DNA of 64,000 bases from Prochlorococcus marinus str. MIT 9313 (lineage in GTDB: Bacteria > Cyanobacteriota > Cyanobacteriia > PCC-6307 > Cyanobiaceae). The stretch is taken from the NCBI RefSeq assembly GCF_000011485.1, contig NC_005071.1, forward strand, positions 124,001-188,000, written 5' to 3'. Shown here piece by piece: positions 58,117 to 63,846 of the stretch. A program made the position numbers and the translations under genes. The notes under the pieces are model-generated. The model saw nothing but the letters and a program-made list of their open reading frames with translations, was not told the DNA's origin and did no database searches. Each line of letters starts with the position of its first letter. Within the stretch, counting starts at the first letter, position 1.

Positions 58117-58299
58117 ATGTCCTATGAGCAACTAAAGGAATTTTTGACTAAAGTCAAACAAGATAAAACTCTGCAAGATCAAGTTAAGAAAGAAAATTCT
58201 GACCTAGTTTATATCGCTAAGGCAGCTGGTTTTTCAATTACGACAGATGATCTGCGCATAGCATATACTGAGTGGGTGAAGGATTCACTGGCAAGCTAA
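58117..58299 (+). CDS. Nif11-domain protein (leader-peptide-like, no core)
   Basis: 60 residues starting MSYEQLKEFLTKVKQDKTLQ and containing YIAKAAGFSITTDDLRIAYT. This is the Nif11 leader pattern used by prochlorosin (lanthipeptide) precursors of marine picocyanobacteria, where LKxFLxKVxxDxxLQ and AKAAGFSIT are hallmarks. Unlike a precursor it stops without a double-Gly motif or a Cys/Ser/Thr-rich core. It is therefore either a free-standing Nif11 protein, common in these genomes, or a precursor whose core has been lost. No lanthionine synthetase gene is in the window. Confidence 0.85.
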   Translation: MSYEQLKEFLTKVKQDKTLQDQVKKENSDLVYIAKAAGFSITTDDLRIAYTEWVKDSLAS

Positions 58300-58927: not shown

Positions 58928-58960
58928 TAATGCTATTATTAGAGCCTAATAATAGCATTA
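58928..58960. repeat. Perfect 14-bp hairpin in AT-rich spacer
   Basis: Arms TAATGCTATTATTA and TAATAATAGCATTA around the loop GAGCC. It lies 119 bases past the stop of the minus-strand DUF1499 gene. No T run follows on either strand. Confidence 0.7.
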
Positions 58961-60811: not shown

Positions 60812-61021
60812 CTAATTGACCCGAGCGATAATCTCAATATTGATATTTTCCTTCAGATAGTCCATGATTGCATTCCATTCCTTCTCTGTATATTCCATTG
60901 GATTGTCATTTCTCAATAGTCCAATGTTTCCATTTATTATAATATCCTTTAAGCAATGATCGTTCATCTGTTTGTTTAGCTCGTGAAGAGCAGCTTGAAT
61001 CGTAGGAGTATTTGGCATCAT
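60812..61021 (-). CDS. Small protein of unknown function, second gene of a two-gene cassette
   Basis: 69 residues, or 68 from the second of two adjacent ATGs. Mixed hydrophilic sequence, PTIQAALHELNKQMNDHCLK at the start, YTEKEWNAIMDYLKENINIE near the end. No membrane segment. It begins 7 bases after the stop of the 205-residue gene, so they are likely co-transcribed. No family recognised. Confidence 0.55.
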   Translation of the reverse strand: MMPNTPTIQAALHELNKQMNDHCLKDIIINGNIGLLRNDNPMEYTEKEWNAIMDYLKENINIEIIARVN

Positions 61022-61028
61022 GTTTTTC

Positions 61029-61646
61029 TTAAATTGTAACGTCTTGCAATTCGTTAATCTTAGCTTTTAGCTTTTTATTCTCATCTCTTAGAGCTGTACA
61101 TACTTTCATTAGGTCTGCCCTTTTCATTGATGTGGTTATTTCCCACTCCTTATTGCCTTCAACCAACTCCTCAATGGCTTTATCGCTGACCTCTTTCTCT
61201 GTAACCTTTTCGCCTCGTTTCATTTTACCTAGGGCATCTCTTCGAGTTCCAGGATCAGCTTTCCCAATTGCTGCTAGCGTTCGCATGCTAGTGCCAACCA
61301 GCTCTTGGTCGGTCACATCTGTATTCTTGAGCCATGACTCCCATGCCGAAGTTAGGTCTCTAATCTGGCCTGCAGTCATTGGAATGACTCCAGATTCTCT
61401 GAACCTTGTCCATTGTTGTTGCTTCTTAAGAACACATTTAAGCCGATAGAGCTCAGCAGCAGTGCTTCGAACTAGTTCTGCTGCAATCCTTGAATTGACA
61501 TTGACAGCATGAACCGTATCTCTCATGATACCTACCTGGACGTCATTCAACCCTTCCGTAATTGCCTCAGGAAGTACGATTGACTCTGACCCTGCACTGT
61601 GCCTATCTGGCGAGATGGCTTTGAAATCGATCGCTGAATCAGTCAT
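61029..61646 (-). CDS. Unknown protein with C-terminal coiled coil, possible phage or plasmid origin
   Basis: 205 residues. The N-terminal 45 are loosely structured. The central part is helical with AAELVRSTAAELYRLKCVLK and QWTRFRESGVIPMTAGQIRD, which has the feel of a helix-turn-helix-containing plasmid/phage regulator of the DUF3102 kind; this is only an impression. The C-terminal 25 residues form a coiled coil (CTALRDENKKLKAKINELQD). GC content is clearly higher than the surrounding desert. A good ribosome-binding site (GGAG, 8 bases before the ATG) and a perfect palindrome upstream suggest an active, regulated gene. Confidence 0.6.
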   Translation of the reverse strand: MTDSAIDFKAISPDRHSAGSESIVLPEAITEGLNDVQVGIMRDTVHAVNVNSRIAAELVRSTAAELYRLKCVLKKQQQWTRFRESGVIPMTAGQIRDLTSAWESWLKNTDVTDQELVGTSMRTLAAIGKADPGTRRDALGKMKRGEKVTEKEVSDKAIEELVEGNKEWEITTSMKRADLMKVCTALRDENKKLKAKINELQDVTI

Positions 61647-61676
61647 TAAGGCACTCCGCTATCCACACCCTAGCGC

Positions 61677-61697
61677 ATTTGAACGAGTCGTTCAAAT
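61677..61697 (-). promoter_or_regulatory. Perfect 21-bp palindrome, likely operator of the 61 kb cassette
   Basis: ATTTGAACGA-G-TCGTTCAAAT, two 10-base arms about one central base, 30 bases upstream of the start of the 205-residue gene. A further TTTGAAC half-site lies about 10 bases beyond it at 61706-61712. Placement and symmetry fit binding by a dimeric repressor, possibly the product of the gene itself. Confidence 0.6.
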
Positions 61698-63846
61698 GGA
61701 GTATTTTTGAACTACTTTGCCAGGTCATCATTTGTCCACCCCCAGAGTTGATTTGCCTGACGAGACATTTGAGACTTCCTCGATTTGCTTGCCTTGGTTT
61801 AATTTATTAAAGTATGTCTTTAGCCTTGCCAATTAAGATTCCCAGTAGTGCTTCATAATTGATCTATCACGCTATATTGCTATCTTAGAATAAAGTCAAC
61901 ATAGACAAGCCCATCTCTTTTGCCACATGCTATTCATATTTAGACCACTGCTGCTATAGATCTTATCTTATTTATATTTAACTACTTCTAGTAATCGATT
62001 TTCAATGTGAAACTCATTTTGATTTCCATTACAAATGTTATTTATTGTCATCATATTCTATTCCTGCTTATTTATTTCATCTAAAGGCCTTTTTTAGGTG
62101 GAAATCCAGTTTATTGGTCTTCTTCTTGATAAAATATTACTAGACATTATTCTAATAGTTCTTATTCTCAGTACTTTGCCTTCCTTTTGCTGTAGAAATA
62201 TTTCTTGATCGAGCATTGCAATCCCAATAGATAGTGCTTTTTGGGATTCCTTTAGGTAAATGTGTTTAGTCCTGGATATATTGTCTATATGCCCAGCAAA
62301 AAACTTTAATTATGCTTTAATGCTTATATCCTTATTAAAATTGATGTAAATGTAGTATAAACTGTAATTAATGCAGAGTTCTAGGGTTCTTATCTGTTGT
62401 CTGGGTTTGAATATCTCTCTATAAGATCTGGATTGCTTTTATTTTTTATCAAAGTTATCTAGGATAAATTTAGAAGAGAAGTAAGAGCCTTGAGCTAATA
62501 ATTGAATATTTAATTCTCTTTTTGCAGATCATTTGCACCCTATATTATCTATAATACGCAAACATCTTTAATAAAGGATGCTTTTATTCTAATACTGATT
62601 CCAATAACTTTTGAAGAGTGTCCATCCTTTTTCCAATATGCGCATATATGATGCCTCCGAATCAACTCCAGATGACATTGCAATCATAAATTGTATTCAC
62701 TATAGTTAATAGCTCTAGAAATCAACCAGATTGTAAATCTATTGCGATCATTTAATGAGATCTTGTGCCGATATTTATTCTATTATTGCTGATTTATTTT
62801 ACCTACTTGTTCAAAATATTGTCAGTGCTCAGTACGCTAATATAATTTCTTGTCGACATCTGTTTTATTTTGCTTAGCTTGGCTCTAATTGGCGCCAAGT
62901 TGCTTTCTTGGAGACCCAGCCCATGCAGGCAGGCCTCTAGGTATATATACTTACATGCCTGCCTTGTCGGAGGCGGGCCTCAGGGCCGCACCCTACCGGC
63001 ATCGGCCTGGATGCTGATTCACTGTCTTCCAGGTTGCTACTTTCTTGCCTGAATGTAATTTGTTCAGAATCGGATAAAGCTTTTGGCGGCCTTCTTGGCT
63101 TGTTCCTGTAACAGATACTCGTCTCTGCAATGCAGTCTATGTTTCAAGCCACCGGCTCAATTTGTCGCAGTGTTGCCTCTATTTGGAGAGCGCATTGCTT
63201 CTGGCCGATTCTTATCATTTAGAAAACGCTATTTGTTATCTATCACATCTTGATGTGCCATAACCTCTAATCAGCCACTAGTAGTGGTTTATCGAATCTG
63301 TTAGGTCGATTTTCTCATTCCTTCTCCTGGTTGCATTGTAGACGCCCTTTAGTTTGGTTGTATGTATTGCACCTTGCGTATTTAGCTTGAGAAAGGAAGT
63401 TGATTTTCACCCTGATGCGCCTGAGGCTAACTCAAGCAGAATTCTCAATCTATATTGAGATGTCTATCTACTTGATGATTCTTTCTGACTGCAATGCTTG
63501 AGTCTTTCGCTCTGTCCGATTCTGTTTGATTGGATTTCATTGTTTTTTCTATTTGTATTGATTAGATCTCCGATAGGGATGTCCTTCCAGTTGTCGTTCT
63601 TGCTTGTTTTTGTGGTAGTTTTTTGACAACTAGAAAAGACAGCAATGTCTACATTGTTATGTGATTAATGTGTGTTAGCACAATGAATCCTTCTAAGATG
63701 CTTGGTAACTACTGTCTTTAATTCCTTTGGGATTTTAGTTTACTGTCAAGTTGAGGATGGATCGTCTGTTTTGATTGGGATTAGCTATCAGACCAACCCT
63801 CCGTACTTAAATATTCTATTCTTTCAGTATTGTCAAAATAGTTGCT
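61698..63846. other. AT-rich spacer with one GC-rich island
   Basis: About 2.15 kb without an intact gene. Most is AT-rich and random-looking. A locally GC-rich, inverted-repeat-containing stretch at about 62885-63060 stands out (see separate entry). Past 63060 the composition is intermediate and there are short protein-like runs but no supported gene. Confidence 0.4.
62885..63060. other. GC-rich structured island, possible RNA gene or gene remnant
   Basis: About 175 bases far richer in GC than either side. It contains GGCAGGC/GCCTGCC arms around an AT-rich loop (about 62928-62970) and further self-complementary GC runs near 62970-63015. A 60-codon plus-strand frame spans it but is not protein-like. 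It does not match 6S RNA, tmRNA, RNase P RNA or SRP RNA in any way I could recognise. Confidence 0.3.

Follow-up and report, generated by a model that had tools for sequence, protein, structure and literature searches.

A predicted autorepressed ParB/Noc-type DNA-binding protein and its conserved candidate operator in Prochlorococcus marinus MIT 9313 and related picocyanobacteria

The window, that is, the whole stretch of 64,000 nucleotides analysed here, corresponds to positions 124001-188000 of the P. marinus MIT 9313 genome, a single contig of 2,410,873 bases. Two minus-strand open reading frames are present as claimed in the initial annotation: a gene encoding a predicted DNA-binding protein of 205 amino acids (P0001, 61029-61646), delimited from the open reading frame, the family alignment and an AF2 model, and, downstream of it, an open reading frame encoding a 69 amino acid protein (P0002, 60812-61021). 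The genes are separated by 7 bp and are probably co-transcribed. The ribosome-binding site that had been proposed is the sequence GGAG, 7 nt ahead of the ATG of the 205 amino acid gene. The pair had also been described as higher in GC than its surroundings, which is clearly so only for the 205 amino acid gene (0.445), since the 69 amino acid gene has a value of 0.352 against 0.28-0.32 in the flanks.

The locus is syntenic in the sister genomes of MIT 9313. Orthologues in the same gene order are found in two genomes (G002 and G003), with 91 % identity for the 205 amino acid protein and 96-99 % for the 69 amino acid protein. In comparison with these two orthologues dN/dS is 0.09-0.16 for the longer gene and 0.04-0.08 (NG86) for the shorter one, and both genes are under purifying selection. 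Homologues of the 69 amino acid protein were found only within its own genus, and the gene was not found beside any more distant relative of the 205 amino acid gene. Its predicted model is poor (pLDDT 53), and a match to the NCBIfam family kduD was rejected, being far below the cut-off of that family. One homologue with 55 % identity (L068:574-828, genome G004) stands alone, with neither the 205 amino acid gene nor the palindrome described below seen upstream. The same gene-poor stretch of the window contains a lone open reading frame for a 60 amino acid Nif11-domain protein (58117-58299, Pfam E 1e-14) and, at 58928-58960, an inverted repeat whose 15-bp arms match perfectly around a 3-base loop, possibly a terminator.

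A perfect palindrome of 21 bp had been reported 30 bases upstream of the 205 amino acid gene, and its core, ATTTGAACGA-G-TCGTTCAAAT, is located there, exactly at 61677-61697. One further pair extends it to 23 bp (CATTTGAACGAGTCGTTCAAATG, 61676-61698, arms of 11 and a centre of 1), which is here predicted to be an operator. A search for the palindrome elsewhere, allowing up to 3 mismatches, returned this single match in the window and the whole 2.41-Mb genome. Among ten copies of the window generated by a first-order Markov model, none contained a palindrome with arms of at least 10 and a loop of 0-3, whereas the real window contains two, the candidate operator and the repeat at 58928-58960. 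A predicted -35 hexamer, TTGAAC (61690-61695, minus strand), lies inside the left arm and is followed at 17 bp by a predicted -10 hexamer, TAGGGT (61667-61672, minus strand), giving the predicted promoter geometry TTGAAC-N17-TAGGGT. TAGGGT matches TATAAT in three of six positions, which is weak and unremarkable by itself, so the assignment of the -10 hexamer rests on its conservation in three genomes and on the parallel in HL Prochlorococcus described below. In the alignment of the three genomes the intergenic DNA has diverged, whereas about 50 upstream bases, including the palindrome, are near-invariant (GTAGTTCAwAAATACTCyATTTGAACGAsTCGTTCAAATGCGCTAGGGT).

No Rfam match was obtained in 56-64 kb of the window, and the palindrome is therefore not a known RNA element; a role as an RNA hairpin is in addition unlikely because of its 1-base centre and its position over the -35 hexamer and the spacer. 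The core sites of recombinases have spacers of 6-8 bp, and the reading of the palindrome as such a site was rejected on account of its 1-base centre.

The AF2 model of the 205 amino acid protein (pLDDT 83) has a long N-terminal helix (residues 35-72), a predicted ParB/Noc-type helix-turn-helix (HTH) domain (residues about 55-165, AF2 model and VIA-align) and a C-terminal helix (residues 176-204) predicted to form a coiled coil, in agreement with the coiled-coil end noticed in the initial annotation. When residues 55-165 were compared with VIA-align, proteins of the ParB/Noc/SopB/KorB group occupied 13 of the 15 top rows with Z-scores of 3.3-6.7 (5-6.7 to Spo0J-parS, Noc and SopB, 4.3 to KorB). 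As these scores are middling and are equalled by the unrelated helical protein Raf1, the assignment of the fold depends on the list being coherent, on matches to viral DUF3102 proteins, one of which was the top match in the viral fold search (probability 1.00), and on the operator evidence. Foldseek against the PDB gave no match at E 0.001, and among solved structures a profile search picked up nothing beyond coiled-coil and chance-level similarities. Neither Pfam, PHROGs, NCBIfam nor PADLOC contained a matching family, and the protein founds a family that is unnamed in these collections.

The CTPase domain of ParB proteins (PF02195) was matched by Pfam neither in the 205 amino acid protein, whose model leaves only some 50 residues before the HTH domain, nor anywhere in the MIT 9313 genome. 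The same ParB_N domain had no match in six picocyanobacterial genomes (G000, G003, G153, G169, G078 and G021), unlike Synechococcus elongatus. No ParA-type neighbour was shared among the member loci, in the part of the neighbouring proteins covered by profile searches.

Profile searches identified relatives of the 205 amino acid protein in 42 of 400 genomes sampled from the cyanobacterial family, in Prochlorococcus and in marine Synechococcus relatives, mostly with 25-40 % identity to the query. The gene is present in 28 of 41 genomes of a genus which we take to be HL Prochlorococcus, and in 13 of the 17 that are near-complete. Residues W79, D97, L98, W105 and R122 are invariant in the family alignment. 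Weak profile matches in other cyanobacteria were proteins of about 350 amino acids, one of them with a DUF3102 domain. Conserved cyanobacterial proteins of this length (L103-L116) share a distant domain with the family; one of them (L103) had no Pfam or NCBIfam match.

A site of the type TTGGACGA-N(1-3)-TCGTCCAA is found upstream of most branches of the family, even though these share only 25-40 % amino acid identity. Of 18 other lineages scored against the site of locus L010, 11 ranked above the complete set of 4000 control windows (combined p ~4e-24), the control windows being drawn from the same loci with family sites excluded and with longer arms used; the MIT 9313 site gave a combined p of 1e-9 in the same test. 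The short 12-bp MIT 9313 core gave a p of only 0.005, in part because the control windows there contained family sites. In the remaining 7 of the 18 lineages the L010 site was not matched significantly, although two or three of them carry visibly divergent versions, and no clear site was seen upstream of the second L049 copy or of L045, L012 and L007. In HL Prochlorococcus the site has the divergent form TTGTTCCGANTCGTCACAA, with TATATT 17 bp after it. The arrangement TTGTTC-N17-TATATT is near-invariant in the 28 copies, with the palindrome overlapping the -35 hexamer, so that the left arm of the palindrome is the -35 hexamer in both the MIT 9313 clade and HL Prochlorococcus. At three loci the palindrome is greatly extended, with 33-bp perfect arms upstream of L044 position 2816 and with arms of roughly 18-22 bp, as judged by eye, upstream of L046 position 9640 and L049 position 6291.

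Control by a dimeric repressor, possibly the 205 amino acid protein, had been proposed in the initial annotation, subject to a DNA-binding fold and to conservation of the palindrome near homologues. The fold is predicted (from matches to the ParB/Noc/SopB/KorB HTH and to DUF3102-type viral proteins) and the palindrome is conserved, and it is therefore well supported that a dimeric repressor, probably the 205 amino acid protein itself, would control the operon.

The palindrome could instead be bound by another host factor, such as LexA, with the 205 amino acid protein acting elsewhere. A second conserved box, AGTTCAAAAATACT (61700-61713, minus strand), adjoins the palindrome and contains GTTCAAA, the extra half-site proposed earlier. 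It is kept in two sister genomes and sits where relatives have boxes of the AGTACANNNGTACT type. In HL Prochlorococcus and in many other members such a box begins 17-20 bp upstream of the operator core. The LexA consensus of cyanobacteria is AGTACWNWTGTACT (PMC3091678), and many members match it in 9-11 of 12 positions at this fixed offset. The MIT 9313 box, a degenerate LexA-like box, matches in 9 of 12 with both half-sites imperfect, and in some members the box is missing. LexA control of the MIT 9313 locus is put forward as a hypothesis on the basis of these motif matches. The box is thus the evidence in favour of a host factor, whereas exact copies of the palindrome occur about once per genome, only at the family gene, which fits an autoregulator rather than a host regulon, and the arms and the centre length (1, 2 or 3) of the operator differ between branches of the family. 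Binding of the palindrome by a host factor in place of the 205 amino acid protein is, overall, unlikely.

The initial annotation had regarded the pair as a regulatory or defence-type module kept after the decay of a mobile element. Nothing supports a defence role, and PADLOC gave no match. The mobile-element part of the claim holds for the family rather than for the locus itself. Tycheposons are, according to a second-hand account (PMC10872708), integrative elements of Prochlorococcus with a tyrosine recombinase, located at tRNA genes. A tyrosine recombinase was found within 10 kb of 8 of the 27 non-HL members, a lower bound as the recombinase search covered part of the genomes; against a rough, assumed background of 3 % this corresponds to p ~1e-6. 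Pfam recognised Phage_integrase in three of four tested neighbouring proteins (471-529 amino acids). G082 has, beside the fixed HL copy, an inserted segment of about 9 kb that carries both a recombinase and a family member. At L056 the family gene is 237 bp from a tRNA-Ala gene, and at L050 it lies between two copies of tRNA-Arg that are separated by about 2.2 kb. Genes for T7-like single-subunit RNA polymerases (L042:3782-6439 in G169 and L047:11434-13875 in G082; Pfam RNA_pol, E 8e-24 and 1.5e-36) each lie on one stretch with both a tyrosine recombinase and a member of the family. The MIT 9313 genome, on the other hand, contained no tycheposon-type recombinase when searched with the L063 protein, no tRNA gene was found in the window or in L060 or L040, and the locus is syntenic in the sister genomes; descent from a decayed element is plausible for the family and would be conjectural for this locus. 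The survey of homologue neighbourhoods that had been suggested thus located recombinases beside some relatives, whereas searches of phages, plasmids and viral contigs with both proteins identified no relatives, only one chance-level plasmid match.

The linkage could also mean that the 205 amino acid protein serves the neighbouring recombinase as a recombination directionality factor (excisionase), since the gene adjoins a recombinase in G169, G024, G002 and G237 and has an SOS-like box. However, many recombinases occur without the family gene and many family genes without a recombinase, and the palindrome is a promoter site rather than a set of arm sites near att, making this function slightly less credible still than binding by a host factor.

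The arrangement of two small genes in one operon, with an operator over the -35 hexamer and both genes conserved in three genomes, would suit a toxin-antitoxin pair with the 69 amino acid protein as toxin and the 205 amino acid protein as an autorepressing antitoxin. Antitoxins are usually shorter than the 205 amino acid protein, no toxin family was matched, and the restricted occurrence of the 69 amino acid gene, absent beside all more distant relatives and alone in G004, also argues against such a pair, which is improbable. Least probable is a partition protein of an element with the palindrome as a parS-like centromere instead of an operator, for despite the ParB/SopB/KorB-type predicted fold, the single site per genome and the integrases beside some members, the protein lacks the CTPase domain, has no obvious ParA neighbour and has its site over the promoter of its own gene; the two functions are not mutually exclusive, as plasmid centromere proteins can also autorepress.

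The 205 amino acid protein is thus probably an autorepressed, possibly SOS-tuned regulator of the ParB/Noc HTH type with an origin in mobile elements. It would act as a stand-alone homodimer, combining the HTH domain with a dimerisation arm formed by the C-terminal coiled coil, and would most likely bind the palindrome over its own -35 hexamer through the HTH. The bound dimer would block RNA polymerase at the -35 hexamer and shut off its own operon, thereby keeping its own level low, while derepression or release of LexA may give a pulse of the protein. The 69 amino acid gene would be a passenger or a partner in the operon. The family may have arisen as an SOS-tuned regulator on tycheposon-like integrative elements, the SOS tuning being suggested by the LexA-like box just upstream of the operator in many relatives, and would now be kept at fixed chromosomal places in the MIT 9313 clade and in HL Prochlorococcus. 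A second role of the protein is likely, because a regulator of itself only should be lost from streamlined genomes.

More tentatively, the members could be regarded as 'mini-ParB' proteins, CTPase-less HTH proteins in which the SOS box and the self-operator time tycheposon-like mobility and which were later domesticated in two Prochlorococcus clades. In the literature searched, which comprised sources other than the original tycheposon description, no autoregulated ParB-like switch with a matching palindrome was described, and such a regulator family may possibly be previously undescribed. The 205 amino acid family itself is new and well supported, its predicted operator is clear, and its mechanism would be of a known kind. 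If the interpretation is correct, tycheposon-like elements, which transfer genes among the ocean's most abundant photosynthetic cells, would have a candidate regulator whose operator is defined, and the protein-operator pairs (centres of 1, 2 and 3) would form a natural series for studying how HTH domains of the ParB type change their site.

In comparison with tycheposons, several relatives adjoin such a recombinase and two are near tRNA genes, unlike the MIT 9313 locus. Five of 27 members weakly resemble DUF3102 (PF11300)/UPF0137-like proteins at the profile level (best E 0.015), none of them reaching the curated cut-off, and no PF11300 match was found in the MIT 9313 genome itself; DUF3102 proteins are among the top viral fold matches and one cyanobacterial match of the family profile carries the domain, whereas the operator and the coiled coil at the C-terminus are traits of the 205 amino acid family. 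The family differs from the ParB/Noc/SopB/KorB proteins in having no N-terminal CTPase domain, in showing no ParA partner among the neighbours covered, and in its site sequence, present as a single site at its own promoter. They are alike in the predicted HTH fold, residues about 55-165 of the model superposing on the HTH domain of the group, and in a palindromic site with a short centre, and KorB is also a repressor of mobile elements (PMC12704722). With autoregulated HTH repressors the family shares the computed feature of a palindromic operator placed over its own promoter and conserved together with the gene.
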